Source of the DNA: Brachionus manjavacas
Taxonomy: Eukaryota > Rotifera > Eurotatoria > Ploima > Brachionidae
Assembly: GCA_019054805.1 (NCBI GenBank)
Contig: JAHQIY010000003.1
Span: 2,108,001-2,172,000, forward strand
Direction of reading: 5' to 3'
Length of the DNA stretch: 64,000 bases
Shown here: in pieces, positions 4,001 to 43,478 of the stretch
Layout: every line of letters begins with the position of its first letter
How positions within the stretch are numbered: the stretch's first letter is position 1
Program-made: the position numbers and the translations under genes
The notes under the pieces: generated by a model
The model's input: only the letters and a program-made list of their open reading frames with translations
What the model was told of the DNA's origin: nothing
The model's database searches: none

Positions 4001-7000
4001 AATGGAAAGCTCTTATTGCAGAGCTTATTGAATTGTGTTTCAGTGTGTCAAAAGTGGTCAGTCCAATAGTGAACTCAAAATCACCGGAGGGAATTTTTCC
4101 AACCGAATTGGTGACCATGCAACCAGACATAGTCAATTCAGACCAACTGAAAAATGTGACTCCACAAATGCTGCTAGTGTGCTGCTGGCGATCAATGAAA
4201 GAAATATCTTTATTCTTTGGCGATTTGGTTCGCTTGCTGCCCATTGAGCACGAAACTCTGAGAGAAAACTCTTACCTGCTGTCATCGGCACAAGTTAACC
4301 AAATTGGTGACTACTTTGTCAAGCACTTGTTCGAAACTCGGCATAGAGGCGCATTTGAATTGGCTTATATTGGTTTTACAAGCATGTGCGAGACTTTCTG
4401 GAAATGCCGTAATGGTTTGTATTGCGATCAGACTCTTAAGTGGGCTGACTATGTGCTGAACTTGATTCAGACCGAGGAGTCCAAGACGAAGCTTTGTTCA
4501 ACAAGACGAGGTGGTGGTCTGCCTTATTTTGTCCAAGCAATAGTCAGCACGGAGCTGGTTGAAAATGGAAGAAAAACATTGTCCAAATGCATGAGTGTGC
4601 TGTTGAAGTTGATCGAAAGCAAAAAGAGCAATACAGATGAGGAGAACTTTAGCCAGGTGTTGGCAATGTACATTCTCAGCGCTTTGTTCAAAGATGCTCG
4701 CTTGGGGGAGGACGTTCTGCAGTATGCTGAAGCGGCTTTGGTTGCAGCCATCAACGGATTTGATTCCGTGTTTTGGAATGTGCGCAACGCATCAACTCTT
4801 TTGTTCAGTTCGTTGATTAATCGCATTTTTGGTGTCAACAGGTCAAAGGAGGAAATATCAAAAAAAAACAGGTAGGAATTTTATTTTTTTATACTAATAT
4901 TAGCTTAAAAGTCATAGTAGTCATTCTAAATCACTACTCTATAATCGTATAGCTAAAATAACAAATAAAATAAAGTGCGCCTATCTTTAAGACAAATTTA
5001 CACTTCTTTATTTAAAATTCTATATAAAAGTTATGATTTAAAAAAAATGAATCCAAAATTATTATTTAAACAAATTTAAATAAAAGATACTCAAGTTAAA
5101 AAATATAAATTATTGCTGTTTTTTAAATTATATTTGAATTTTTTTAGCTTTTTTCTTATCAGTTTTTCTTTTGATGCTTCGAAAGATTTTTTTTTGTTTT
5201 TTCTAAAACATTTTATGTGTTACATTTTTTTTTAAATATTTTGATTTAAAGTGTTCTTTTTATTTGTTAATCTGTACCGAACTAGTGCTCCTTCAGAATA
5301 AAAATATATAAAAAATTAAAATTAAATAAGATGAAATAAAGAATGATAAATAATTTAAGAAAAAGTACCTAAATTTTGTAAAGAAATGTTCCACTTTTTG
5401 TTTTATCCATTATTATTTACATTTCAAATACTTTTTTACATAATTGGTCATTGAATTTTTTTTAACAAAAAATAATTTATATCTCCTATCCCGTCTCATC
5501 CTTTCTTTGCTATTGTAAAATCAACATATAAAATTTGTCTATTTTGTTCCCGTAGTGGGTCTATAGACCAAGGAATGACAAACTTTAGTTGGCCTTGAAT
5601 TGAATTCTTCTAATAGTTGATTTTATTAATTAAAGTAACAAAACCATTTAAAATTTTGAACAATTTTATTTAAGAACTTAAAATAGAAACGAGAATAATC
5701 TAATCATTCTTTTTTTTACTAATCAAAGATTGCTTTAAATGGCTCTATCTCAAAATTATAAATTAAATTAAAAAAAAATAATTTAGGAAAAGTTTTTCCA
5801 GGGCAGTTCCGAATGGCAGAGCCTTCTTTTCAGCCCACATGGTTGCAATATGATTAAAATATGTATTTAAATAAATGTGTACAATTGGAGTAGAAAAATT
5901 AATATTTATATTGTAAAAACATTGATAAATTCAATTTTTGCTAAAAGTTTGGTGTGTTTGAGATGGAATCAGAGGGTGTTTTCAAAGGGTCTATATCAAA
6001 ATAGCTACGTTTAAAATAGCTGTAATTAAAAAAGCTAAAATTAATTTTCTCAGGTAAATTTTTTGTTAATTTAATTTAGCTAAAATCAAAATAGCTTTAA
6101 ATAAAAAAAATAAATAAGAATATCTAAGTAATAAAAAAGCGTGTATCAAAAAAGCTAATTTTAATTAGAAGCAATCTGTGAATTTGAAAAAAAATATTTT
6201 ATTTTGAAAAATGTCAGATGTTGATCAACTAACAACTTGTGTTAGAAATCTAAGCTTAAACAAAGCTTTTAGTTCTCTCTCACAAAAAGTTCATTACCAG
6301 TTTCATTTAAATGGTTATTACTATAAACAAAATGTACAACAAAATAAAAAAAACATTTTCAATTGGCGCTGTATTAAGCTTTATAATGAGATATTAGGTC
6401 TTAATTTTATTTTTATTGACACCTTTTTTGAATTATTTAAAAATTTAGACAATTAAGCTATTTTAAAATATTTTTTTCCTAATTTAAAAAAAATTAATCG
6501 AGCAATTTTGATATTTATTCAACCTGTACGCTTTTTTAATTATAGCTATTTTAAACAATGCTATTTTGAGGTATGGACAATATTTTTTTAAATTTAATTA
6601 TTCAACAATTCAAATATTATTAATTTAAACTAATTTTTAAACTGTATGACTATTCGATTATTCGATTATTCAGCTTTTTAGGAAAATAATTCAGAATAAA
6701 TTTATTAAGATCTCTCTTTGCGTCTAATTAACCGGATTCCCTAAACCGGAGCTGCGCCCCAGACCCCATTCAATCCCCAGTAAGCTCAAGACGCCTAGCG
6801 TCGCCTTTCGCTTAGTCAAACTATGGTAAATTTAAGGGTTAATTTTCTTTAACTAAAATTCTACCGGAAATTATTTGAAAACAATCATTTAATAGTTGAA
6901 TAATCGAATAATCGAATAATTGGTAAATATCGAATTTTGTCCATGACTGGAATTTAGGTGCATAACACCGGAGGGGGTATATTTCAGCTTCAAATAGATC

Positions 7001-10000
7001 GAATTGCTGAATTTTGATTTTTTTTTTTTAGTTTTTTTCTCAAATTACAGTTTAGGCAAGAGAATGGACTAGCTGACTCTGTTAAACTTTGCCTAAAAAA
7101 TATTAACGACACCAAGTACTTTACGCTACTTATTAATTTAACTAAGTCATTTGGTAGTTCCAGTGGAACAAATATTGGTGATTAGTTTTTTTTACCTTTT
7201 TAACTTTTTTTTTATATACTCTCTTTCTCCTTCAATGGAGGTTAATTTAACAATAAATAAATAAATTATTCATTTTTTCAAGATTTTCTATCTCTTTGAA
7301 AATAAAAATAAGCAGAAAAATCAAAGAAGTGAATTTTAGCTGTTTGTTTTTTTTGGTATGTCATTTATAAAAATCTTCCTCAACTTTTCCTCAACTCTTC
7401 CCGTATAGCCGAATAGTTTGCGTGTTAGTCATGCAAGCAGAGGATCGAGGGTTCAAAACCTGTTGAGGGTGAAAAAATCTTCAAAATATCTCTGCAATAC
7501 GGGGCGAATGTTTAAACCTCTTTCATCATAAAAATAGGGGCACCAGTTTCGACTGGGTAATAATTGCGGTGTAGATGATCAACTCGATGCAGTAGCCTCT
7601 GTGTCAGATCGTAGCCGTTGCTCAAAAAGCTACATGAAAAGGAGATGAGCGCCTCCCCATTATCCACTAAGATAGAATAGGGTCAATTATTTATTTATAA
7701 AATGCTAAAAAGAAGTAAAAGGATAAAACTTGAAAACATGCTAAACAAAGAAGAAAGCAAAGATGGAATGACGGAGTCAATAAGGTACCTTTTTAGAGAA
7801 TCGAGCGAGAAAAACAGAAAGATCATAGAACTACTCCTAAAATCACATTAAAATAGATACTATTTTATTAAAAAAAAAATTATACCGAGAAAGCACGTCC
7901 ATTATTGAAGTGGTTTCGATTGACTTTGGTTTGAATTGTTTGCTTATTGTTCTCCTAGTTCGATTTGATCGTGAGTCCTTGAGTGGTGAGGTCTAAAAAA
8001 AAAAAAAAAAAAAAAAAAAGAAAACAGAAACTAGAAAATAGAAACTTTACTAACTAAAAACTTGAATAATAATTTAGAAAATTAAAGAAAAAAAAAAATT
8101 ATGTATTTATGAACATTTAAAATTCGATACGGAAAAGTACTCTTCATTTGTCTTACAATTATTTTTGTCCTAATTGTTTGATTACTTTATTTTATTATTT
8201 TTTTTTTTTTTTACATCGCCTACAAGGCGTTCATTGAATAAATCATTCATTAAAAAAAAAAAAAATGCTAAAAAGAAGTGGACCCCTAATTACTGACCCT
8301 TGTGAAACTCTTGCTTTAATATGGTATTGATCACTTAGATGACCATTTACATATACTCTAAAAGATCTTAATTGGAGAAACGATCTTATCTAAAAAATGA
8401 GAAAAGGAGGTAGATTAATTCTAATTAGCTTGTAAATTAGTCCATCGTGCCGAATTTTATCAAAAGCTTTAGAAATGTCAAAATAAAGACAACAGACTTT
8501 AATCTTTCTATTTAAAGATTCTTAGACTTTTTGAATAAGAAATTAAAGATTATTTGCAGTGTGTCTATGTTTTCTAAATCCTCATTGCTCTAGAATCAGT
8601 AATTTATTGTTTTCAAGAAAATTAGAAAATATTCTGGTGTGAATAATAAGTTCAAGTAACTTGCCAAGGCATAATAATTGGAGGATAGTTATCAGGGTTT
8701 TGAGTGAGAGAAGATTTCTTAGGTATCATGGGTATAGTTGCTATTTTCCAGGATTTTTGGACAAGAGTAGACTTATTTCAAATAAAGTCTCTTGAGGTAA
8801 ATTTTTTAACTTTAGGTTGTGAATACGATCTAGACCAGAATTAGCTAGTTCTTTTGTTCTATGGGATTTTTCAAATTTCTATTTAAAATATTTTCTTAAG
8901 GATCCGTTGTTACTCTTTTCAAAATCACATTTTTATCAAAAAAAATTATTTACTTGAAATTTTTAAATAATAATTCTGCATAGAAAAACAAATATGTGAG
9001 ACAACGACTTTCAGAGATGAAAAAATTATCGCGAGTCTTTTCTACATTACAAGAAAAGGTACATTACTTATTTTATAACTAGCTAAAATAACCCGAGAGA
9101 ATGCATACTTTTTTTTTTCTCGACAAGCTTTAATTTTTTTATTTTTTTCATGAACATATTTGCTGTTTTGAACATGTTATTTTGATTGTTTTATTTTGAA
9201 CAATGCTTTTTAAGAGGCATCTATCAAAATCATATCGGACAAACATGTTTTTCTAACAAGTCATTAATGATAATTTATTTAGATTTTAAACAAATGTAGC
9301 AAAACGTAGAACTTAGCAAAATTCATTGATAAATTTCTTGCCAAAAATTCCTCACCTTTTGCTAAAATGAAAGCTTTTTAAATAAACTTTTCAAACTCAA
9401 AAAATTAATCAATAATTTTTCTTCAATAGCTAAATAGTAAACAAAGTAACTATTGAATTTATGTTTAAAAAAATCAATTGTATCGAATGCTTATCTGATT
9501 TTAAAAAATGGTATAAAAAGACTGCTAAAACATTTAAAAAATCATTCAAAAAAATAAAAACTATCAATAATTTTAAAGACTACCATCAAAACAAAAAAAA
9601 AATGTGCTCTCCATGTGGTTCATCGTTTAACTTTTCTTTAGCTGTCCCACTTTCATTGTCTCTCCCAGAGCCATTGCCATTACCTCTCCCAATTAGCACT
9701 TGTGGTTCACCATGCTCAGCTCCAGCTCCACTTCCATTGCCCCTACCTCTCCCAATTAGCACTTGTGGATCACCATGCTCAGCTCCAGCTCCACTTCCAT
9801 TGCCATTACCTCTACCAATTAGCACTTGTGGATCACCATGCTCAGCTCCAGCTCCACTTCCATTGCCACTACCTCTCCCAATTAGCACTTGTGGTTCACC
9901 ATGCTCAGCTCCAGCTCCACTTCCATTGCCACTACCTCTACCAATTAGCACTTGTGGATCACCATGCTCAGCTCCAGCTCCACTTCCATTGCCACTACCT

Positions 10001-13000
10001 CTCCCAATTAGCACTTGTGGTTCATCGTGTGGCTCTTCATATGGTACTTGGTTCTAAAAACAAAATTAAAAAAAATTTTAAATTTTTCTAAGCTAGAATT
10101 TATGTTCTAGGCAAAATTATTATTTTATTTTATTTTATTTAAAATTTTTAAGAGATAAAGTTTATTTTATTTACATTTTAGTTTAATTTAATTTTTTTTA
10201 TTCCTTCAGAATTTTCGTTTGACTCCCAAGATACAAAAGTATAATTTGACAATGTATTATGAAAGTGTTAGATGAATATGACATAGGTGTATGTGAAAAC
10301 TTTTAATAAAAAAAATAAAACTCAAATTCAAATTAATTGATAAAAAATTAAAAAAGATGAAATTTTGTTTTTTTGGTTATTATTTATTATTTTTGTGGTT
10401 TGATAATATTATATCTAAAACAAGTTAATTTTTTCGATCAAATTAAAAAAAATGGTCAAAGCAAATGGCTTCTTGAAGTTGTTGATCAATTCAAAATATC
10501 ATTCAAAGAGTTTGTCTTTAGATATTAAAATTGACCTTAAATTTCATTTAAATAATTTCAATGTAACTTGCTTAACATGTTTTATAGATTTTAAAAAATA
10601 AAATAATTAAAATTTTTTTTTTAAAAAGAAGCTATTTTACTTTGGCATTTTGAAGCTTATGATCGATTTTCGATGTTCAAAATAATCAAATTAAGTTTTA
10701 ATTATTAATTTAAATGATATTAATTAGATTTTATTAAATAAATTAAAAATTAAGCAAAATTAGAATTTTTTTGATCTCTGCCCTAAAAAAATCAAAAGCT
10801 ATTTTTAACTTTAGTTTTGGTAATAAACGCTGACTTTATTTTTAATTTTCTTTTTCTTTCTCTGCATTAGAGCCCAAATGTGGGATCTAAAAAATGGCCG
10901 GTGAATTAGAGTTTACATATCATGGTACGTTAAACTTAAGTTTATTTTTTTGAACTAATAGCATTTTTTAGAAAAAAATGTTTTTTAATAAAATAAATAA
11001 ATTTTCTTAAATTAAAAAATTAATTTTATCTATTTTAGTATGCCGGGACGAATGTTCTTCATAAAGTTTCCTCAGTTGTATCAATTTTTCCACAATGTAA
11101 TAACTAATTCAATTGACACATTAGAGTAAGAAATTTATTGTACTTTATCATTCTAAATTTATTTAAAATAATTTAGTACCAATTTAAATGCAAAGCTCTA
11201 TTTAATTGTGCTGATACTTTGCCACCTGTACACTTTGAGTGACGAAGCTTCGGACCCAGAAGCCCTCCTGCACAACTACGTTCCATTGCTTCTCCACTGT
11301 TCCAAATCACCAGTCATGAAAACAAGGGTATACATTGCCAAATCAGTGTCATCAATTGTCAACTTGCATCGATACCCGAGCTTACTAAATCAACTATTTG
11401 ATGACCACTTTGAAAAAATTCGACCTGGAGACCACAACAAAATTCATGGACTTTTAGCAGTGCTCAATTCTCTAATTGACAAAAACAATATTTTTAAATT
11501 TATGAAAATTGATGATTTTTTCGACAGATTAATTCCTATTATTCAGCTTAAACAGTAAAATTTAAAAGAATTTTTTTTTATTTTTAAAATTTTTATTTTA
11601 ATTAGTTGTCCTGTAAACTATGCCTCTTTATTGAATCTAATGTCAAAAATATTTTATGAATATGAAAGCGAACTAGTAGGTGGTAAACTTGGAAGACTGA
11701 CAGAAATTATGGGCCATTTGGAACAGCAATCAATTGAGTCATTGACTATAAATTTAGGGGATGCACACAATTTTGTCTTACCAGGAACTCATGATTTGTT
11801 GATGGCGATTGGAGAGTCATTTTGTATTCGGATCTTTACTGATTCGGACTCCAAAGCTTATTTTTCAGTCCCAAGAGACCCATTTGTTGGTTATTCAATG
11901 AATTTAGAGAGAGGAGTGGTCCAGTTTTTTAAAAATTGGAATTATTTGGGAAAAAAAGATCGACTTGATGCAATAATGGAGAAAATAAGTCAATTTTTTG
12001 GATCAAGTCTTAAACAAGCAGTGATAAAAAGTCAACAAATCGACAATATCTGGAATTTAAAAACAGTAGCTTTAAAATTTTTTAATTTAAATTTTTGATT
12101 TTTTAATTGTTTAAAGTCGTGTGAATTGATGAGCTTTTATGTTGAAAATAAAAAGAGCAATTTATTGTTTGATAACGATGCAGAATTGGTCGAATTTTGG
12201 TCTAAACTCATTCAAACAACTTCTATCCAAACCGAGTAATTTTTTTTTAATTTAAAATTATTTTAAAAGTTAAAGTAAAATTTTAAATCATTGACAAAAA
12301 TGCATAATTTCAAATCAAAAATTTCTTTTAATTTTATAAATTTATTTTTTATGGCTAATTGGGTATATTTTTTATAAATTTTCCATGAATCGATTTTCAA
12401 TTATTTAATTACACAATATCACAATTTTTTTTTTCACATTCAGAAATAAAATAATGAATTGTACAATTTGAATTATTAATAAAACAAAAAAAAAAGTAAG
12501 TCTCACAGTAATAAAAATTATTGTCACAGTAAATAAATCTAATAAATCTTTATTTGAAGCTGACGTGGCATTTTTAGGTCTACCTCTTTTTTTCAAATTT
12601 AGTTACACCATTATAGTAGCCCAAATCAAGCTCAAGAAAATTACTTAGGTAAACCAAATGAGCACAAGTGGCTCTATCTATATAATCACTGCAATTTTTA
12701 ACTTAAATCAGACAAGCTTACTCTGATTGTCTGATTTAAGTTACCGTTTGGCTGTAATTCGGATTGGGTTGCCATTTGAAATTGTACAATTAATCAAAAT
12801 TATTGTATAAATAATAAAAAATGTTGTTCATTTAATTTTGTGCAATTCAGTTGTGATATTAATTTTTCTATTTGCATAATTCATATTTTTATTGTGCGAT
12901 AAATGCTTACTCATTATTTAATTTAAAAAACTTTAAATTTAACTTCAGCTTCTTGACTATTTTAATCAGATTTTTTAATAGTCACAAGTCATAGATCAAG

Positions 13001-21821: not shown

Positions 21822-23840
21822 GCTCGTGTCAAAAACACGAGCTTATAATTAAGTCAAGATGTGAGCTAAGTGCTTAATGTATCTGTCAGCATTTTGAAGC
21901 GTCTACTCATCTTATTAGCTCGTGTTCAGGTGTTCAGGGTTCATGGGAGGTAAATAAGATAAATAAGCAGGGCTTTTTATTGCGAGTAAAAAGACGTTAA
22001 TTAATTAATAAAAAAAAATGATAGGTTTTAAATGTATAAATATAAAATATTGTGTTCTTTTAAAAATAACATACAATTTTATTTTATTGTGCGTATACTA
22101 ATCCTTGTTTTGTCAAGGATTTTTTTTACGTAGAGTACGTTAAATTCGGTACGCATACTCATGTCTGCTAAATATGCTCATAAGGCGACCGCTCGTTCAT
22201 CGCAAATAATAAAAAACTTTAAAGATAAAAAAAAATCTGTTCTCTTTTTTTAAGTAAAAAAGTATAAAATAAATTATCTTTTTAAAAAAAAATTTATAAC
22301 ATGATATAATTAAAGTAAAATAGTATTAAATGAAGATATTTGTGCATTTTTGGCTTTTATAATTTTAAAAAACAATCGATATGGAGTCTTTCATAGAGGC
22401 AAAAAATCTTAAAATTTTTAGAAAATTAATAAGACGGACAGTAATAGAATGGTCGGCAACACTCGCATTTAGTTATTTTGTTAAGATTAGTTAATTTTTG
22501 TTTAATTTCTAATAATTAATATATATTTATTTTAAATTGTGATTCTTATGACTCTATCAAAACATTTTTCATTTTATTCAATAATACATGCAAAAATCTC
22601 GATATGAATTTAATAAGAATATCAATAAAGAGAAGTCCATATTTTTATTGTTTGATCAGCTGAACCACTTGCCAAATCACCATTTTGTAGTACTGCAAGT
22701 GTCTTTACATATTTTGTGTGACAGTTTAAAGTAATTTTTTCAGTTCCATCATTTGAATTTCAAATTTTAAATGTTGTATCAGCTGAACCACTGTTCAAAT
22801 CACCGTTTTGAAGCACTACTAGTGACTCAACATAATTTAAGTGACCATATAATGTTAATTTTTCATTTCCATCAATTGGATTCCATATTTTAATTATTGC
22901 ATTAGTTGAACCACAGACCAAATCACCGTTTTGTAGAACTGCAAGTGACAAAACATGACCTGATTGACTGTTCAAAGTCATTTTTAAGCTTCCATCTATT
23001 GGATTCCATATTTTAATAGTCTTATCCCATGATCCACTGGCCAAATCACCGTTTTGAAGAACTACTAGAGACTCAACACAATTTGAGTGACCATATAATG
23101 TTAATTTTTAATTCCAACTATTGGATTCAATATTTTAATTGTTTTATCCCAAGATCCACAAGCCAAATCACCATTTTGAAGAACTACTAGTGACTCAACA
23201 TAATTTAAGTGACCATATAATGTTAATTTTTCAGTTCCATCAATTGGATTCCATATTTTAATTATTGCATTACTTGAACCACAGACCAAATCACCGTTTT
23301 GTAGAACTGCAAGTGACAAAACATGACCTGATTGACTGTTCAAAGTCATTTTTAAGCTTCCATCTATTGGATTCCATATTTTAATAGTCTTATCCCATGA
23401 TCCACTAGCCAAATCACCATTTTGAAGAACTGCAAGCGATCTAACCCAACTTGAATGACCACTTAATGTCCATCTGACTTAAAACATATATTCTGTTTAA
23501 ACCTGCTTATTAATTTTTTTAAATGAAATTTACTTGTAACTTTTTTTTCAAAAACAATTGAATTAATTCTATTTTGTCTTTTCTCACTTGTAATGCAGCT
23601 TTTAAAAATGGTACAAACATTTCCTTTTAACATTGCTGTGTTACAATCGTTTATTTTCAAGCATTCAGACACACATAGAAATTGATTTTTTGTTTCAAAC
23701 CTTATCGATTCTTTAAGTTTATCAGCTGTCCCAAGTATTTCTTTATTATTAAATCTATTAAATTTTAGTCCAATTTTCTTCCCTTGTAATTCGAAAATCG
23801 TAATAAGAAATTTTTTAACAATTTTTAAAATCATGTCCAA
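21822..23840. repeat. Left arm of large inverted duplication
   Basis: 21822-22750 matches, inverted, 32555-33449, including ctcgtgtcaaaaacacgag at the outer end, gtacgcatactcatgt/acatgcgtac, and cagggctttttattgcgagt. The remainder (22640-23840) is a minus-strand PAN/WD40 gene copy corresponding to 32100-32683. The outer tip is an 8-bp palindrome, gctcgtgt (21822-21829) and acacgagc (21835-21842). Confidence 0.8.
22625..23840 (-). pseudogene. PAN-like/WD40 protein, decayed copy
   Basis: On the minus strand an open N-terminal part (23840-23463) has MDMILKIVKKFLITIFELQG, then NQFLCVSECLKINDCNTAML and VCTIFKSC. Seven WD40 blades follow in another frame: 23460-23101 (three blades), a frameshift near 23101, 23100-22760 (three blades nearly identical to the first three, suggesting a tandem duplication of about 360 bp), a stop after ADTTFKI at about 22760, and a final blade ending ADQTIKIWTSL. 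It is the homolog of 29204-30413. Confidence 0.8.
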
Positions 23841-26934: not shown

Positions 26935-28390
26935 ATATTTATGGAGGATTCAACAACCCTTCTCCGGGTTTAACATTAAATTTTTTATTTAGCATGAAAA
27001 TAAAATTATTTTGTAATCAAAATTAACTATTTAAAATATATTTTTGGTTTTAGTTTTGATGGAAAAAAAAATTTTCAAAAAAGTTTAAATTTTTGGAACA
27101 ACAAGCAAAAGAAGTAACAAAAGGAGTCGAAAAAAACCCTCTGGTAGTTGAGTGTTAAGTAGTTAAAATAACCCGAGAGAAAAAATTAATTAAAAAGCGA
27201 CAAAAAAGTGAATGTTTAAACGGGTTAAACTAGAAAAATGCAATAAAAAACAATAAATTATTTAAAAATTTAAAAAGCGAGTAGATTAGATTCAGTTTTT
27301 CCCGTTTTTGAGCGTTAAAGCGTTTTTTGCTGCTTTATTATTGCTTACTTTTTTTCGAGAAGCTTTGGTTTTACTACTTTCTTTATATGAACATATTAAA
27401 TTTGCCGTTTTTAACATGAAATTTTAATTTTTTTATCTTAGGTAATGCTTTTTAATTGGCATCTATCAAAATCATATCGGACAAACATGTTTTTCTAACA
27501 AATCATTAATGTTAATTTATTTAGATTTTAAACAAATGTAGCAAAACGTAGAACTTTGCAAAATTCATTGATAAATTTCTTTTCAAAAATTCCTCACCTT
27601 TTACTAAAATGAAAGCTTTTTAAATAAACTTTTCAAACTCAAAAAATTAATCAATAAATTTTCTTCAATAGCTAAATAGTAAACAAAGTAACTATTGAAT
27701 TTATATTTAAAAAATCAATTGTATCGAATGCTTATCTGATTTTAAAAAGTGGTATAAAAAGACTGCTAAAACATTTAAAAAATCATTCAAAAAAATAAAA
27801 ACTATCAATAATTTTAAAGACTACCATCAAAACAAAAAAAAAATGTGCTCTCCATGTGGTTCATCGTTTAACTTTTCTTTAGCTGCCCCACTTTCATTGT
27901 CTCTCCCAGAGCCATTGCCATTACCTCTCCCAATTAGCACTTTTGGTTCACCATGCTCAGCTCCAGCTCCACTTCCATTGCCACTACCTCTACCAATTAG
28001 CACTTGTGGATCACCATGCTCAGCTCCAGCTCCACTTCCATTGCCACTACCTCTACCAATTAGCACTTGTGGATCACCATGCTCAGCTCCAGCTCCACTT
28101 CTATTGCCACTACCTCTACCAATTAGCACTTGTGGATCACCATGCTCAGCTCCAGCTCCACTTCCATTGCCACTACCTCTCCCAATTAGCACTTGTGGTT
28201 CATCGTGTGGCTCTTCATTTGGTTCTTGGTTCTAAAAACAAAATAAAAAAACTTTAAATTATTCTTAGCTAGAATTTATGTTCTAGGCAAAATTAATATT
28301 TAATTTTATATTTTTTAAAATTTTTAAGAGATAAAGTTTATTTTATTTACATTTTTGTTTAATTTAATTTTTTTAATTCCTTCAAAATTT
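26935..28390 (+). repeat. Pro-rich gene repeat unit, copy 2
   Basis: Begins with atttatggaggattcaacaa, the same start as copy 3 at 34528, and runs to about 28390 where similarity to the other copies stops. A separate 40-bp scrap of the unit (aattcctcaccttttgctaa...) lies just before it at 26894-26931. Confidence 0.8.
27843..28235 (+). CDS. Pro/Leu/Cys/Ser-rich repeat protein, copy 2 (130 aa from internal Met)
   Basis: Same protein family as 9461-10057, with four 21-residue repeats. The upstream start seen in copies 1 and 4 is lost (atg to ata near 27703, and one A missing in the following A-run), yet the frame from about 27720 to the internal ATG at 27843 is still open and homologous. If expressed, translation would start at MCSPCGSSFNF. 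Replacements ISTFGSP (unit 1) and LLLPLP (unit 3) occur, so constraint may be relaxed. Confidence 0.5.
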   Translation: MCSPCGSSFNFSLAAPLSLSLPEPLPLPLPISTFGSPCSAPAPLPLPLPLPISTCGSPCSAPAPLPLPLPLPISTCGSPCSAPAPLLLPLPLPISTCGSPCSAPAPLPLPLPLPISTCGSSCGSSFGSWF

Positions 28391-29203: not shown

Positions 29204-30413
29204 TTGAAAATGATTGTAAAAATTGTAAAAATATTTCTTATTACGATTTTCGGATTACAAGGTAAGAAAATTGGACTAAAATTTCATAGATTTGACGGTA
29301 AAGAAATACTTGACACAGCTGAAGAATCAATAAGGTATGAAACAAAAAATCAATTTCTATGTGTGTCTGAATGCTTGAAAATAAACGATTGTAACACAGC
29401 AATGTTAAAAGGAAATGTTTGTACCATTTTTAAAAGCTGCATTACAAGTGAGAAAAGACAAAATAGAATTAATTCAATTGTTTTTGAAAAAAAGTTACAA
29501 GTAAATTTCATTTAAAAAAATTAATTAACAGGTTTAAACAGAATATATGTTTTAAGTCAGATGGACATTAAGTGGTCATTCAAGTTGGGTTAGATCGCTT
29601 GCAGTTCTTCAAAATGGTGATTTGGCTAGTGGATCATGGGATAAGACTATTAAAATATGGAATCCAATAGATGGAAGCTTAAAAATGACTTTGAACAGTC
29701 AATCAGGTCATGTTTTGTCACTTGCAGTTCTACAAAATGATGATTTGGCAAGTGGTTTAGCTGATCAAACAATAAAAATATGGAATCCAATTAATGGAAC
29801 TGTAAAAATGATACTAAATAATCATACAAGTTCGGTTTTTTCTCTTGAAGTACTTCAAAACGGTGATTTGGCTACTGGTTCAGCTGATTCAACAATTAAA
29901 ATATGGAATTTAATTGATGGAACTGTAAAAATGACGTTAAATGACCACACAAATTATGTTTTTTCACTCGTTTTTCTTCAAAGCGGTGATTTGGCTAGTG
30001 GATCATATGATCATTCAATTAAAATATGGAATTTGGCTAATGGAATTGTAAAAATGACATTAAATGGCCATACAAGCAATGTAATGACACTTGCAGTACT
30101 TCAAAACGGTGATTTGGTCAGTGGTTCAGCTGATACAACAATTAAAATATGGAATTTAATTGATGGAACTGAAAAAATGACATTAAATGGTCATTTAAGT
30201 TGGATTAGATCGCTTGCAGTTCTTCAAAACGGTGATTTGGCTAGTGCATCATGGGATAAAAAAATAAAGATATGGAATTTAGTTGATGGAACTGAAAAAA
30301 TGACTTTAAGCTGCCATTCTGATGCTATTTTGACACTTGCAGTTTTACAAAATGGGGATTTTGCTAGTGGATCAAAAGATGGAACAATCAAAATTTGGAG
30401 TTATTTTTATTGA
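29204..30413 (+). CDS. Putative secreted PAN/Apple-like plus seven-blade WD40 protein
   Basis: The N-terminal part (29204-29515) starts MKMIVKIVKIFLITIFGLQG, a possible signal peptide, followed by a Cys-rich segment (NQFLCVSECLKINDCNTAML, VCTIFKSC) reminiscent of PAN/Apple domains. From about 29573 a second frame encodes seven WD40 repeats ending IKIW (SWDKTIKIW, LADQTIKIW, SADSTIKIW, SYDHSIKIW, SADTTIKIW, SWDKKIKIW, SKDGTIKIW), enough for one closed propeller, with a stop at 30411-30413. The two parts are in different frames, about 60 nt apart. All three copies in the window show this break, so either a very short intron joins them or the family shares an old frameshift. The propeller ORF is fully open, unlike the other copies. 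Function and partner are unknown. Confidence 0.65.
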
Positions 30414-32099: not shown

Positions 32100-32683
32100 A
32101 TAACAAAAAATCAATTTCTATGTGTGTCTGAATGCTTGAAAATAAACGATTGTAACACAGCAATGTTAAAAGGAAATGTTTGTACCATTTTTAAAAGCTG
32201 CATTACAAGTGAGAAAAGACAAAATAGAATTAATTCAATTGTTTTTGAAAAAAAAGTTACAAGTAAATTTCATTTAAAAAAATTAATTAACAGGTTTAAA
32301 CAGAATATATGTTTTAAGTCAGATGGACATTAAGTGGTCATTCAAGTTGGGTTAGATCGCTTGCAGTTCTTCAAAATGGTGATTTGGCTAGTGGATCATG
32401 GGATAAGACTATTAAAATATGGAATCCAATAGATGGAAGCTTAAAAATGACTTTGAACAGTCAATCAGGTCATGTTTTGTCACTTGCAGTTCTACAAAAT
32501 GATGATTTGGCAAGTGGTTTAGCTGATCAAACAATAAAAATATGAAATTCAAATGATGGAACTGAAAAAAATACTTTGAACTGTCACACAAATTATGTAA
32601 TGAGACTTGCAGTTCTTCAAAATGATGATTTGGCAAGTGGTTTAGCTGATCAAACAATAAAAATATGGACTTCTTTTAAATGA
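32100..32683 (+). pseudogene. PAN-like/WD40 protein, truncated copy
   Basis: Starts within the Cys-rich domain (NQFLCVSECLKINDCNTAML) without the signal-peptide region, then the usual frame break after FKQNICFKSDGH-stop, then three WD40 blades. A stop in place of W after ADQTIKI at about 32544 breaks the propeller; the last blade ends TIKIWTSFK-stop at 32681-32683. It forms part of the right arm of the inverted duplication. Confidence 0.8.
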
Positions 32684-34090: not shown

Positions 34091-35124
34091 TGTTTGGTCT
34101 CATTTGTTTATGATAAGCATAGCTTGTTGGCTTAGCTTTCTCATTAGAAATTAATCTTTTCTCTGAGAGTTGTACCATCTCTGTCATTCATTATGATTCA
34201 GATCCTTTTTCGAAGTTTTTTCATTTTTAGTTTCTTTTTATTCATGTTATTTATTATCTGAGTTATATTCAGTATTATTCAAGTTGATTTGATGTTTCCT
34301 TTCTAATTCGAAATTATTATCAAAGTCATCATTTTCCTGATAATCATTATAATTATCATCAGAAACTTCGAGTTAGGTATTATCCGCATTACCAAGAAGT
34401 TCAAGAGCTTTTCATCGAGACATCGGTTCAAAAATAACTATTTATTGTAGGAATCAAGTAGAGTTGGAAATCAAAAGCATAAATAGCCATTTATTTTTGA
34501 TTTATTTTACAAAAAAAGACAAAATTTATGGAGGGTTCAAAAACCCCTCTTCGGGTTTAACGTATACTTTTTTTAGCATGAAAATTCAAAAATTATTTTG
34601 TAATCAAAATTAATTATTTATAATATTTTTTTGGTTTTAGTTTTGATGGAAAAAAAAAATTTTCAAAAAAGTTTAAATTTTTGGAACAACAAGCAAAAGA
34701 AGTCACAAAAAGGGTTGAAAAAACCTCTCTGGTAATTGAGTGTTAAGTAGTTAAAATAACCCGAGAGAAAAAATTAATTAAAAAGCGACAAAAAAAGTGA
34801 ATGTTTAAACGGGTTAAACAAGAAAAATGCAATAAAAAACAATAAATTATTTAAAAATTTAAAAAGCGAGTAGATTAGATTCAGTTTTTCCCGTTTTTGA
34901 GCGTTAAAGCGTTTTTTGCTGCTTTATTATTGCTTATTTTTTTTCGAGAAGCTTTGGTTTTACTACTTTCTTTATATGAACATATTATATTTGCCGTTTT
35001 TAACATGTAATTTTAATTTTTTTATTTTAGATAATGCTTTTTAATTGGTATCTATCAAAATCATATCGGACAAACATGTTTTTCTAACAAATCATTAATG
35101 ATGATTTATTTAGATTTTAAACAA

Positions 35125-36391
35125 GTAATTGGCTGCGTTACACATAAATTTCCAAACACACATTTTTTTTTTGTTGCTGCGTTCAACCTATATTTTTACC
35201 GAACACACATTTTTTAGAATGTGTGCGTTTTATTCCAAAAAAAAGGAGAAAAATAAAAAACAAATTTTCATTGAAAATACTTTTTTTGGACTTTTCAATT
35301 AACCTCTATTTAATGGAAATTGGACTACAAATAAAAATATTGTTAGTAACAATGCAACCTTTTAATAGCGAATAGCGAAAATTCTAATTATTGATACTTG
35401 AAGACCAATTAACTTTGATGCCTAGTACAATGCTGTCTAAATAATTAAAAATAAATGATCAATTTTTGATTTATCTTTTAACTTTTATTTTTATATTGTT
35501 GAAAATGACATTGCATATTGATTTAAAATGCTTAATAATTATTTTGAAACATTAAAATGTACCCAAATTCTTTTTACTATAACGATTGTTTTCAAATTCA
35601 TCCTAATAATTGGCAACCGAATTGTAATAATGGTTACCAATATACCGTTATCTCAATCATCAATCGCTTCAACTACTTCATCGCAATTTTCAATAATTGG
35701 TAAATCTAAAATAAAAGCTCCTAAAATTGGTAGAAAAAAAGATGTTAAGAAAAAAGCGAGTCATGGTCAATTAACAATGTACTGTTCAAATATGCAAAAA
35801 ATAAACGAAGATGAGTCTGAAAATGCTGCGTTAGTACTTGCGCCTGATTGTAAATTTTCGAAAAACGAACAAAGAATCAAAAAGTTTATTTATAATCAAT
35901 AAATCAATAAAAAGTTTATATATATTTTAAATTTTATTTATAATCAATTTCTTAAAAATTTAAAAATTTTACGTCATTATTTTCTGATGATGGTCTAAAA
36001 CAACTTAAAGCTTCTTTATTTTCTTAAAAGATTAATTTAAAATATGAGATTTGTAATGAATACTTTAATATGAAGGAATATGTTAAAATTTGTTCGATTT
36101 GTTATAAAAATTTTCATCTTAAACGTTCTAATAGCCTTAAATCGACTTAATTGTGGACTTGTAATTTTTGTGAAAAATCGCTTACTTTTTATTTTAAATT
36201 AATTTACTAATTTTTTATTTTTTTTTATTTTAAATTAAATTTTACCAGAAACTTTGTTTTTTTACTTTTCACACATTTTTTAGAAAAAAATGCACAAATA
36301 CTAAAAAATGTGTGTTGAGAAAAAAAAGGTTGAACGCAGCAAAAAAAAAGAAATGTGTGTTAGGAAATTTGTGTGTAACGCAGCGACTCTC
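35125..36391. mobile_element. Novel-looking TIR DNA transposon with 9-bp TSD
   Basis: Flanked by tttaaacaa at 35116-35124 and 36392-36400; uninterrupted copies of the host repeat have this string once. The inverted ends are long: gctgcgttacacataaattt from 35132 and its mirror aaatttgtgtgtaacgcagc ending at 36384, extending inward through acacacattttt and tgctgcgttcaacct. The 9-bp TSD suggests a MULE-like mechanism. The interior has one ORF and a Cys-rich remnant. Confidence 0.85.
35528..35902 (+). CDS. Unrecognised ORF inside the 9-bp-TSD transposon (124 aa)
   Basis: Has a hydrophobic start (ILFTITIVFKFILIIGN), then a Ser/Thr-rich part and a lysine-rich segment (KSKIKAPKIGRKKDVKKKAS), ending KNEQRIKKFIYNQ. 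The upstream part may not be coding; the Ser/Lys part could be the N-terminus of a transposase. About 140 nt downstream, 36045-36185 encodes EICNEYFNMKEYVKICSICY ... WTCNFCEK with a stop in the middle, a C-x2-C...C-x2-C zinc-binding-like remnant in another frame. No family assigned. Confidence 0.4.
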   Translation: MLNNYFETLKCTQILFTITIVFKFILIIGNRIVIMVTNIPLSQSSIASTTSSQFSIIGKSKIKAPKIGRKKDVKKKASHGQLTMYCSNMQKINEDESENAALVLAPDCKFSKNEQRIKKFIYNQ

Positions 36392-36707
36392 TTTAAACAA
36401 ATGTAGCAAAACGTAGAACTTTGAGAAATTCATTGATAAATTTCTTTTCAAAAATTCCTCACCTTTTACTAAAATGAAAGCTTTTTAAATAAACTTTTCA
36501 AACTCAAAAAATTAATCAATAAATTTTCTTCAATAGCTAAATAGTAAACAAAGAAACTTTTGAATTTATATTTAAAAAATCAATTGTATCGAATGCTTAT
36601 CTGATTTTAAAAAGTGGTATAAAAAGACGGCTAAAAAATTAAAAAAATCATTCAAAAAAATAAAAACTATCAATAATTTTAAAGACTACCATCAAAACAA
36701 AAAAAAA

Positions 36708-37163
36708 ATGTGCTCTCCATGTGGTTCATCATTTAACTTTTCTTTAGCTGCCCCACTTTCATTGTCTCTCCCAGAGCCATTGCCACTACCTCTACCAATT
36801 AGCACTTGTGGATCACCATGCTCAGCTCCAGCTCCACTTCCATTGCCATTACCTCTCCCAATTAGCACTTGTGGATCACCATGCTCAGCTCCAGCTCCAC
36901 TTCCATTGCCACTACCTCTCCCAATTAGCACTTGCGGATCACCATGCTCAGCTCCAGCTCCACTTCCATTGCCACTACCTCTCCCAATTAGCACTTGTGG
37001 ATCACCATGCTCAGCTCCAGCTCCACTTCCATTGCCACTACCTCTACCAATTAGCACTTGTGGATCACCATGCTCAGCTCCAGCTCCACTTCCATTGCCA
37101 TTACCTCTCCCAATTAGCACTTGTGGTTCATCGTGTGGCTCTTCATATGGTTCTTGGTTCTAA
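36708..37163 (+). CDS. Pro/Leu/Cys/Ser-rich repeat protein, copy 3 (151 aa from internal Met)
   Basis: Five 21-residue repeats and the ending STCGSSCGSSYGSWF. As in copy 2, the ancestral start is lost (ata and a shorter A-run near 36568), and the first in-frame Met is MCSPCGSSFNF at 36708. All unit-to-unit changes here (tta/cta, ctc/cta, tgt/tgc) are silent, so the repeat array is well preserved despite the start loss. Confidence 0.5.
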   Translation: MCSPCGSSFNFSLAAPLSLSLPEPLPLPLPISTCGSPCSAPAPLPLPLPLPISTCGSPCSAPAPLPLPLPLPISTCGSPCSAPAPLPLPLPLPISTCGSPCSAPAPLPLPLPLPISTCGSPCSAPAPLPLPLPLPISTCGSSCGSSYGSWF

Positions 37164-37440: not shown

Positions 37441-39655
37441 TTGCTTCTCAGTGATTAGATTATACTTCTCGATATGTTTCACTATGTAGTCCTTGATCAG
37501 TGACTCTAAGACTTTGCATGGAACAGACGTCAGAGAGACCAGGAGATAGTTGCTTACCATGGTTCTGCTTCCCTTCTTATGAATTGGCGACACATTTGCT
37601 ATTTTCCATTCGGCACTTCGGACGAGATCAAGGACTGTTCGAAGATGAACGCGAGAGGCACTGCTAGTGACTCTGCAAACATCTTGAGAGCATGCGTACT
37701 AATCTGGTCGACTCCAGCTGACTTATTGCTGTTCAACTTCTTGAGTTTTGCCAAAACCTTATCCGGAGTCACCACATCCTCAATTAAAAAACTTGGATCA
37801 GGCTCAGCTTTTACCTCGACATTAGCCTCAGCGGTAATTACGGCTGCTCTAGAAGTCGGTGGCTCGAACACTGAGAAGAAGTAAGAATTCAGTCTTTCGC
37901 AGATGCTCACTTTGTCTGTGACGATTTGGTTATCCATGTCCATCAAAGCTGCTATGCTTTCTCTTGACGAGAAATGTCGGTTCATATAAGAGTAAAGAAG
38001 TTTTGGATTTTTCTTTACCGACTGAACAAGTTTCAATTCGTACTCGATGATGCTCCTTTTCCCGACATGTTTGACCAGCTTACATAAGTATCTATGCTTG
38101 CTCACATATTGTTCACTCTGCCTCTCTATACGTCTGCAGATAAAAACTCGTCTTTTTTGACGAACGAGTAAAGCAATTTCGAAGTTCCACCATGGTGGTT
38201 TCGCGTTTAATGACCGGATACGACGTCTTTTGACGTATAAAATGGCGGCCTAACAGAAAGTATAAAGAATGTCGAAGTACAAATCTTGGACGGACCATTT
38301 CTGTGAAACTTTACGAAAAATATTATTTTTTAGGTATTCACTCATTGCACCAAAGTTGCCGCTACGCCAATTGAGTGACCTGCTATCGAAGTTTGCAACC
38401 TCGAAGCTCTTGAATGCAGCTGGAAGATCAAGCTACAATGGTGTTTGGAAGCATTGCCGTCTAGAGGCGGGCCTCTCAGGACATCTGATACCCGGTTCGG
38501 ATCACTCACTAGCACAAGGTCAAGCCGACTGGTCGACTGTTCGTTGCAAAAGAACGTCTCCTCTTTAACCATTTGTACAAGACTTGAATTGCTGATGGCG
38601 TAACCAACATAGTTGCACGTATTTGATACATCCTGTATCAGTGGTGCACCGTACTCATTCCACTCGATATGGGGCAAATTGAAGTCGCCCATAAGTATGA
38701 TGCCTGAATGCTTTCCGTTTCTTAAAAAGTTAGTCGTAGATCTAATTGAATTCGCTATAGCAATGTCCGCATCGGTAGGAGAGCTTGTGGTGTTATGTGA
38801 AGGTGGCCTGTAAATACAGCCCAATAGGAGTGGTTTCTCATTCTCGATTTTTACAGTAACCCATAATTGCTCACACCTTGGGTCAATAAAACTTCCCTGT
38901 AAATTACTGTAGGCTTCATAGTCGGACTTGATATATAAGCAAACACCTCCGCCCCTCTTGTCGCCAGGACGGTCCTTCCTAAATAGCTAATAGCCTTCCA
39001 ACTCTGCAACCGAGCTCTCGTCAAACCAAGTCTCTGAGATACCTATGATGCTCAGTGATGAACTAGCTGCTATTGACTCAAGCAAGTGCAGTTTGTTGTT
39101 TAGACTTATGACATTGCTATACCAAAAGCTGATAACTCCTTCATAAGTTGATTGTCTCTTGGTATTCTGGCTTTGATGCGGTGAGCCGTTTGAGGAAGCA
39201 AGTAATGGCGAGTAACCTGTTCTACTCGATGATGCCGAAAGCGATGACCAAGAGGAGTCCAGAGAACTGAAAACTGACTCATCTGAGCTTCTATTTTGGC
39301 GTGTATTATTGGGAGAGTACTCTATCAGTGATGGTTATATTTCAATTTAATTCGTAGGATCATGAGGAACTTCTTTGAGACCCTTGGGTCGACTGGATTT
39401 GGCTGAATTGGTTAAGATCTTGTTTACCGCTGCTTTGGTTGCTACGGAACGACTGGAGTTGGTTGAGTTGGTCAAAGCTTTGTTGATTGTTTCTTTGGTT
39501 GCTTCGATGCTGTTTTGATCAACTGATTCATTGAGATCAAATGAGGCGATGATCTCTCTTGATTGCAGTTTTTCTTTTTGCTATAAATGTTCAATATTTG
39601 ACAAGACCAGCTTTAATTCACCATTTCTTATTCCCCAAAATCTTTTTTTTCCGTC
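37441..39655 (-). mobile_element. CR1-like LINE, 5' part: endonuclease and start of RT
   Basis: The minus strand encodes, with few breaks, an ORF1-like stretch, ISETWFDESSVAELEGY, RGGGVCLYIKSDYEAYSNL, then LLLGCIYRPPS and ILMGDFNLPHIEWNEYG (APE-type endonuclease; ORF 38824-38342), a linker, and the RT start (38105-37599: LKKLNSNKSAGVDQISTHAL, IFEQSLISSEVP). It stops near 37441 before the RT active site, so the 3' part is missing. The sequence is less AT-rich than its surroundings and relatively well preserved. It lies exactly between Pro-rich units 3 and 4. Confidence 0.85.
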
Positions 39656-40770
39656 CTCGAAATCTTTAGTTTTACTACTTTCTTTATATGAACATATTAT
39701 ATTTGCCGTTTTTAACATGTAATTTTAATTTTTTTATCTTAGATAATGCTTTTTAATTGGTATCTATCAAAATCATATCGGACAAACATGTTTTTCTAAC
39801 AAATCATTAATGTTAATTTATTTAGATTTTAAAATAATGTAGCAAAACGTAGAACTTTGCAAAATTCACTGATAAATTTCTTTTCAAAAATTCCTCACCT
39901 TTTACTAAAATGAAAGCTTTTTAAATAAACTTTTCAAACTCAAAAAATTAATCAATAAATTTTCTTCAATAGCTAAATAGTAAACAAAGTAACTATTGAA
40001 TTTATGTTTAAAAAAATCAATTGTATCGAATGCTTATCTGATTTTAAAAAATGGTATAAAAAGACTGCTAAAACATTTAAAAAATCATTCAAAAAAATAA
40101 AAACTATCAATAATTTTAAAGACTACCATCAAAACAAAAAAAAAATGTGCTCTCCATGTGGTTCATCATTTAACTTTTCTTTAGCTACCCCACTTTCATT
40201 GTCTCTCCCAGAGCCATTGCCATTACCTCTACCAATTAGTACTTGTGGATCACCATGCTCAGCTCAAGCTCCACTTCCATTGCCACTACCTCTATCATTT
40301 AGCACTTGTGGATCACCATGCTCAGCTCCAGCTCCACTTCCATTGCCACTACCTCTATCATTTAGCACTTGTGGATCACCATGCTCAGCTCCAGCTCCAC
40401 TTCCATTGCCACTACCTCTACCAATTAGCACTTGTGGATCACCATGCTCAGCTCCAGCTCCACTTCCATTGCCATTACCTCTCCCAATTAGCACTTGTGG
40501 ATCACCATGCTCATCTCCAGCTCCACTTCCATTGCCATTACCTCTCCCAATTAGCACTTGTGGTTCATCGTGTGGCTCTTCATATGGTTCTTGGTTCTAA
40601 AAACAAAATAAAAAAACTTTAAATTATTCTAAGCTAGAATTTATGTTCTAGGCAAAATTAATATTTAATTTTATTTTATTTAAAATTTTTAAGAGATAAA
40701 GTTTGCTTTCGATTTTTATTTTTAAATAAATTCATTTTATTTTATTCCTTCCAAATTTTCGTTTGACTTA
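39656..40770 (+). repeat. Pro-rich gene repeat unit, copy 4
   Basis: Similarity to the other units begins near 39656 (ctttagttttactactttct; the first 400 bp of copies 2 and 3 are absent) and fades after about 40770. Confidence 0.8.
40004..40600 (+). CDS. Pro/Leu/Cys/Ser-rich repeat protein, copy 4 (198 aa)
   Basis: Full-length like copy 1: ATG at 40004, the same basic N-terminus (MFKKINCIECLSDFKKWYKK), five repeats and the ending STCGSSCGSSYGSWF. Two units carry LSFSTCGSP instead of LPISTCGSP, and one each has AQAP and SPAP, so replacements are more frequent than in copy 1. The 48-residue N-terminus equals that of copy 1. Confidence 0.6.
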   Translation: MFKKINCIECLSDFKKWYKKTAKTFKKSFKKIKTINNFKDYHQNKKKMCSPCGSSFNFSLATPLSLSLPEPLPLPLPISTCGSPCSAQAPLPLPLPLSFSTCGSPCSAPAPLPLPLPLSFSTCGSPCSAPAPLPLPLPLPISTCGSPCSAPAPLPLPLPLPISTCGSPCSSPAPLPLPLPLPISTCGSSCGSSYGSWF

Positions 40771-43406: not shown

Positions 43407-43478
43407 TCCCGCGTGGTCTAGTGGTTAGGATTTGACGCTCTCACCGTCAAGGCCCGGGTTCAATTCCCGGCACGGGAA
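43407..43478 (+). tRNA. trnE-CTC: tRNA-Glu (anticodon CTC)
   Basis: A 72-nt cloverleaf: acceptor tcccgcg/cacggga, D-arm with ggtctagtggttagga, anticodon arm tgacg-ctctcac-cgtca with anticodon CTC, T-arm ccggg-ttcaatt-cccgg, discriminator A. The A box (tggtctagtgg) and B box (ggttcaattcc) are good. One acceptor pair (position 6-67) is C-A. It lies 216 bp upstream of the GCP4 start codon on the same strand. Confidence 0.95.

Follow-up and report, generated by a model that had tools for sequence, protein, structure and literature searches.

The lorica proteins of Brachionus, studied by Kleinow and colleagues, are reportedly keratin-like and disulfide-linked, and we know of no sequences for them. 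Vertebrate KRTAP and SPRR/cornified-envelope proteins combine short Pro/Cys/Ser-rich repeats with tandem gene clusters, and spidroins keep conserved termini around fast-changing repeats; both arrangements recur in a gene family of which four copies lie in a stretch of 64,000 nucleotides of the Brachionus manjavacas genome (assembly GCA_019054805.1, contig JAHQIY010000003.1, here C3, positions 2,108,001 to 2,172,000 of the forward strand), referred to below in its entirety as the window. Judged by their sequences, these four genes constitute one subfamily of a Brachionus gene family that numbers 21 genes or more. The core members have start and end motifs, TATA-box position and composition in common, and the family is under purifying selection on its protein. 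It has no match in the libraries searched, and its products are plausibly a cross-linked structural material.

The original prediction had described four arrays of a 21-residue repeat, and these are real, each being composed of 63-bp tandem units (95-96% matches) with 4-5 full units. The features of the four genes on contig C3, numbered from the first base of the window, are the following.

9602 to 10057, plus strand: proposed coding region of copy 1, 151 amino acids, from the methionine at residue 48 of the long open reading frame (Met48) to the stop; relatives found by BLAST start alike.
9671 to 10024, plus strand: 63-bp tandem array of copy 1, 95% matches, five full units plus part of another.
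9512 to 9520, plus strand: TATA box TATAAAAAG of copy 1, 90 nt 5' of the Met48 ATG, inside the 'basic head'.
9461 to 9601, plus strand: 'basic head' of copy 1, reinterpreted as probable core promoter and 5' leader.
27843 to 28235, plus strand: coding region of copy 2, 130 amino acids, four full units, TATA box at 27753.
36708 to 37163, plus strand: coding region of copy 3, 151 amino acids, five full units, TATA box at 36618.
40145 to 40600, plus strand: coding region of copy 4, 151 amino acids, five full units, TATA box at 40055.
27912 to 28202, 36777 to 37130 and 40214 to 40567, plus strand: sister 63-bp arrays of copies 2, 3 and 4, 96% matches each.
9108 to 10339, plus strand: segment of copy 1 common to the other three copies, 92-95% identity over 1.1-1.2 kb each.
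Peptides of the family: TGWEFSAPLSLPAP and CGSPCSAPAP.

Full units number 5, 4, 5 and 5 in copies 1 to 4 (19 in total), and every array closes with a partial unit that leads into the C-terminus. The repeats hold two Cys per unit, with CGSPC motifs and dense Pro-x runs, and the proposed copy 1 protein carries 14 Cys and neither Lys nor Arg. The segment common to the four copies takes in the promoter and the 3' flank, its ends varying by copy, and is interrupted in copy 3 by an insertion. A DNA transposon-like insertion of about 1.27 kb divides the region upstream of copy 3 (window 35116-36400); close to its ends it carries inverted repeats of 13 bp, GCTGCGTTACACA, which begin at 35132 and end at 36384, and a target repeat of 9 bp, TTTAAACAA, flanks it on either side, 7 bp outside the inverted repeats. 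The search for further copies that had been proposed was run over the 114-Mb genome (61 contigs) and found no fifth copy of the C3 subfamily among the best candidates scored from protein, repeat-poor-end and upstream-flank DNA searches, the sole extra match of the last, among those candidates, being a 42-bp flank piece at C3:2134892. Beyond the C3 subfamily, the genome yielded 15 other core genes and two looser members. The vasa guide target and the two vasa HRM primers published for B. manjavacas (PMC10395877) all match this genome exactly and in their proper order at a single place, in keeping with this rotifer or a near-identical sister.

Family members were found by searches from distant members followed by translation, and all counts are lower bounds; to pass the gene scan a frame needed the start motif and more than 10% Pro, both of which traits are therefore partly a product of how the genes were selected. 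The 19 intact, distinct core proteins comprise the four of the window and 15 beyond it, two on contig C1, one on C4, two on C6 and ten on C9, the last falling within about 80 kb; L011_2998 was left out of the counts, the gene being cut there by the locus end and whole as L016_1501. All 19 begin M-[CST]-(SP)C, though this motif had served to pick the genes, all have a Cys near the start, and all end in Phe. The repeat is 21 residues long on C3, 22 on C1 and 27 on C9, with differing sequences. Repeat number and sequence turn over fast, whereas the composition, the end motifs and the cysteines persist. Across the core proteins Pro makes up 20.2%, Ser 17.6%, Leu 15.4%, Ala 11.1% and Cys 4.1% (2 to 14 Cys per protein), with no Lys, no His and one Arg, i.e. 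one Lys or Arg in 2296 residues, where the makeup of five open frames in the window would predict 227. A promoter-plus-start pattern matched 12 times genome-wide, each time at a core gene (12/19) and never in a reversed control, and a looser pattern 16 times (once in the control), at 13 core genes, L081 and two short frames, both patterns having been modelled on known members. The two looser members are as follows.

C9:1643230-1643544: L081, MSCGFSP...CSPCARPAIQT repeats...CGNPYAGFF.
C9:1934524: L032, MTC...CCAGSFGGFF, TATA box at -71.

Both have zero Lys and some Arg. L081 is Cys/Pro/Arg-rich and shares the MSCG start, the AGFF end and the TATA box with the family; the box stands at -80, but L081 was itself found via the TATA pattern, and BLAST with L081 against the genome returned nothing but L081. 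Among the candidates rejected as family members, the frames of L079 and L080 close within 10 codons, L008 (C3:308298-308687) is a separate PVPV/PVRVP-repeat frame with many Arg, and L028/L029 on C9 hold a 3' end only.

The earlier statement that no family has this architecture holds for the libraries, since Pfam gave nothing above cut-off for four core proteins, the long open reading frame and the two looser members, and the best E-value in a PDB search was 0.13, reached twice, but not for the genome, where the family counts at least 21 genes. Pfam scores below cut-off were 22.2 bits against 27 for DUF6927 (over 12 residues), 16.5 against 25 for Spidroin_MaSp and 14.4 against 27 for DUF7697. 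Nothing was found on the Pro/Cys-repeat family in searches of the open-licence literature. A rotifer expressed sequence tag paper reports abundant unmatched transcripts with repeats, of 68-nt units or Ser-Thr, and none with 63-nt Pro/Cys units was found among them in the available part of that paper (PMC1925144).

Each of the four genes comprises one short open frame, preceded by a TATA box, for a Pro-rich, Lys-free, Cys-bearing protein. The products are probably Pro-rich structural proteins that stay inside the cell and are joined by disulfides, and they may belong to the lamina of the rotifer lorica. The available text of PMC13403294 describes an electron-dense lamina that lies within the epidermal cytoplasm of rotifers. 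The proteins would be unfolded and, because no signal peptide is visible, would be kept in the cytoplasm, where the Pro-x repeats may act as extended, nearly uncharged, flexible spacers and the cysteines may link chains by disulfides; lacking Lys, the proteins cannot provide the lysine partner of amine cross-links, those made by transglutaminase included. Such proteins would form a tough sheet or filler within the cell. In a crude signal-peptide count, the best 12-residue hydropathy within the first 40 residues was 0.66-1.53, and a structure model gave no confident structure (mean predicted local distance difference test score, pLDDT, 35, from an alignment of four rows).

An alternative that keeps the structural role and moves it outside the cell, to the eggshell, the trophi matrix or a pedal-gland glue, by way of no classical signal peptide or an unrecognised one, is unlikely: materials of this sort typically contain low-complexity repeats rich in Pro, Cys and Ser, and in copies 1-3 the start is followed by a mildly hydrophobic stretch (1.33-1.53), but this stretch has no basic n-region and has prolines in its would-be core, and the Cys near the start lies where signal-peptide cleavage would remove it. 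A regulatory or signalling role, as in Pro-rich adaptors that bind SH3/WW domains or Cys proteins that bind metals, might be read from the dense Pro-x runs and the CGSPC motifs of the repeats. It is very improbable, given that the Pro-rich runs have no adjacent basic residue of the kind SH3 ligands require, that the C4/C6/C9 members carry only two Cys, and that many of the genes are near-identical and in tandem.

The 'conserved basic N-terminus' on which the predicted architecture of a basic head plus repeats depended is most likely not protein, and translation most likely starts at Met48, from which the protein holds no Lys or Arg, the 'basic head' being promoter plus 5' leader. In copies 2 and 3 the ATG of the long open reading frame is replaced by ATA, one A is missing, and an in-frame TAA directly precedes KINC; the next in-frame ATG, Met48, is common to all four copies and lies 141 nt 3' of the long-frame start. 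TATAAAAAG stands 90 nt 5' of this ATG in all four window copies, and 18/19 core genes have TATAWA between -75 and -91 (the remaining one, L006, has TATAAG in the TATA position), against 2 of 174 background ATGs over the range -70 to -95, the background being the other ATGs of the window with at least 40 codons, family genes excluded. AAAA occurs just before the ATG in 19/19 core genes and 12/174 of the background, AATAAA within 120 nt 3' of the stop in 17/19 (a count for the core genes alone), and an in-frame upstream ATG in only 3/19. Relatives from other subfamilies found by BLAST start M-[ST]-C at the Met48 position. A TATA-directed start would give a leader of about 45-60 nt, near that of B. 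plicatilis, for which the available part of the tag paper gives a mean leader of 52 nt and reports no trans-spliced leader found (PMC1925144). A spliced upstream exon encoding a signal peptide was considered and rejected, given the TATA box 75-91 nt 5' of the ATG in 18/19 genes.

That the long open reading frame from 9461, basic head included, is the true protein, with copies 2 and 3 broken, is highly unlikely; copies 1 and 4 do keep the frame open, and just 9 of 141 head columns vary between copies, but the TATA box lies 51 nt 3' of the long-frame ATG, 16/19 core genes have no in-frame upstream ATG, and the head is Lys-rich whereas the 19 core proteins total one Lys or Arg. A more general pitfall is that AT-rich genomes can let a promoter and leader read as a Lys-rich protein 'head'.

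The purifying selection that the original prediction had drawn from silent variation within the arrays stands, though not on that argument. In copies 1 and 3 all five distinct changes among units are indeed synonymous in the plus frame (5/5), and the residue changes named for the other frames (N/S, S/Y, V/D) are present. The silent pattern nevertheless depends on the copies chosen, since only 4/10 changes are synonymous in copies 2 and 4, which also carry P>L, P>S, I>F, C>F, A>S and P>Q; over all four copies, 6 of 12 distinct changes from the consensus of the 19 units are synonymous, where a fraction of 0.32 would be expected (P=0.15), and an array-internal silent excess was accordingly rejected as proof of selection. 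Between the four copies, the ratio of nonsynonymous to synonymous differences per site (pN/pS) over 390 nt is 0.27 pooled; among single pairs it is lowest for copies 1-3 (0.09) and highest for copies 1-2 (0.66). The proposed count of synonymous and nonsynonymous changes across copies gave, for C9 against C6/C4, pS 0.345, pN 0.091 and a nonsynonymous-to-synonymous substitution ratio (dN/dS) of 0.21 over 30 non-independent pairs, i.e. about 0.2 between subfamilies and not near 1, with 0.27 within C9 and 0.15 within C6/C4. The pair L011/L007 shows 31 synonymous differences on 79 sites and 19 nonsynonymous on 227 (Fisher P about 2e-9, a test that treats sites as independent, which repeats are not). 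The coding frame of the 19 genes is free of stops, as it was selected to be, and the other five frames hold 31-304; one antisense frame also has a low ratio (0.23), because silent positions stand in register, but it contains 31 stops over the 19 genes (38-304 in the other four). A satellite-like array with a frame open by chance, to which the non-significant silent excess within the array (6/12, P=0.15) would be congenial, is scarcely credible beside dN/dS values of 0.15-0.27 within and between C4/C6/C9 genes, 31-304 stops in the other five frames, and shared ends and promoters.

Several points weigh against the intracellular structural reading and the family evidence beneath it. The labels 'structural' and 'lorica' rest on composition, and least secure of all is the move from a Cys-bearing structural protein to one of the lorica. 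The two Cys of the C4/C6/C9 members would allow chains, but not a net by these members alone, and two C1 members fall outside the 17/19 core proteins with a Cys within the last 15 residues. The crudeness of the hydropathy test leaves room for an unusual secretion route, and a low pLDDT from a four-row alignment is a weak sign of disorder. The lorica is called chitin-containing in the available text of PMC5333405, which is at odds with a lamina made of protein alone. Residue changes occur in copies 2 and 4, one of them costing a repeat Cys, and the C1 pair, with eight differences, cannot separate frames. For the subfamilies that differ most, homology is argued from the promoter layout and from short motifs at the ends, BLAST scores are inflated between low-complexity repeats, and the start motif is found in 19/19 by construction because it was used as a scan selection rule. 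Lastly, the head varies between the four copies (9/141 columns, 6%) about as little as the coding ends (4%), with 9% upstream and 24% downstream, so conservation alone cannot tell leader from coding sequence.

A more specific form of the intracellular structural reading, which is tentative and rather doubtful, is that the genes encode the missing lorica protein, a Lys/Arg-free, Cys-bearing, Pro-repeat polymer that would form the intracellular skeletal lamina, a 'keratin' without keratin or intermediate-filament ancestry. Proteomics would have missed such a protein, since it offers trypsin no site to cleave. If true, candidate genes would be named for an animal hard part of which an open-licence literature search gave no molecular account. 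A practical warning is that trypsin makes no internal cuts in proteins without Lys or Arg, and standard proteomics can overlook them. The family also offers a case in which to test whether selection acts on composition rather than sequence, in that its repeats turn over between subfamilies as promoter layout, start and end motifs and charge-poor makeup persist.

The setting of copy 1 appears to be the intron of another gene, in which it would be nested on the same strand.

4872 to 11038, plus strand: predicted GT-AG intron of a THADA/TRM732 gene housing copy 1, 6.2 kb, placed by exon domains and in-frame splices.

Exons on one side of this intron carry PF10350 and the start of PF25151 and those on the other side more of PF25151, and in-frame exon joins at 4871/11039 and 11125/11177 lift PF25151 from 43.7 to 85.8 bits as an unbroken match. 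Elsewhere in the window, arrays of 123-bp units occupy 22636-23469, 29564-30413 and 32360-32667; the frame at 29622-30413 encodes WD40 repeats (Pfam), and the other two arrays look similar by consensus. G+C is 0.385 at 38001-40000 and 0.390 at 62001-64000, against 0.22-0.34 in the other 2-kb blocks, and a tRNA-Glu (CTC) gene lies at 43407-43478.

Compared with known systems, KRTAP and SPRR proteins are cytoplasmic and cross-linked by disulfides, two properties that the rotifer proteins are predicted to share. The family nevertheless has no Pfam match above cut-off to KRTAP, SPRR or loricrin, has other end motifs and belongs to a distant phylum; further, SPRR and loricrin use transglutaminase Gln-Lys pairs, whereas with 0 Lys in the 19 rotifer proteins there is no such pair within the family. 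Spidroins, alike in their conserved termini, differ in that a C1 member reaches only 16.5 bits against the Spidroin_MaSp cut-off of 25, and neither a folded terminal domain nor a clear signal peptide was seen in the rotifer family. The mate recognition protein gene of Brachionus also has tandem repeats and comes from the same genus, but is set apart by description, its repeats being much longer and its product a surface glycoprotein. The lorica proteins of Kleinow, reportedly intracellular, Cys-bonded and insoluble, are again from the same genus and would match the family by description only; the Cys for disulfides are available (2-14 per protein), and the bonding is predicted. The kind is a known one, that of Cys/Pro-rich low-complexity structural proteins, and a Lys-free rotifer variant with exchangeable repeats seems to be new.

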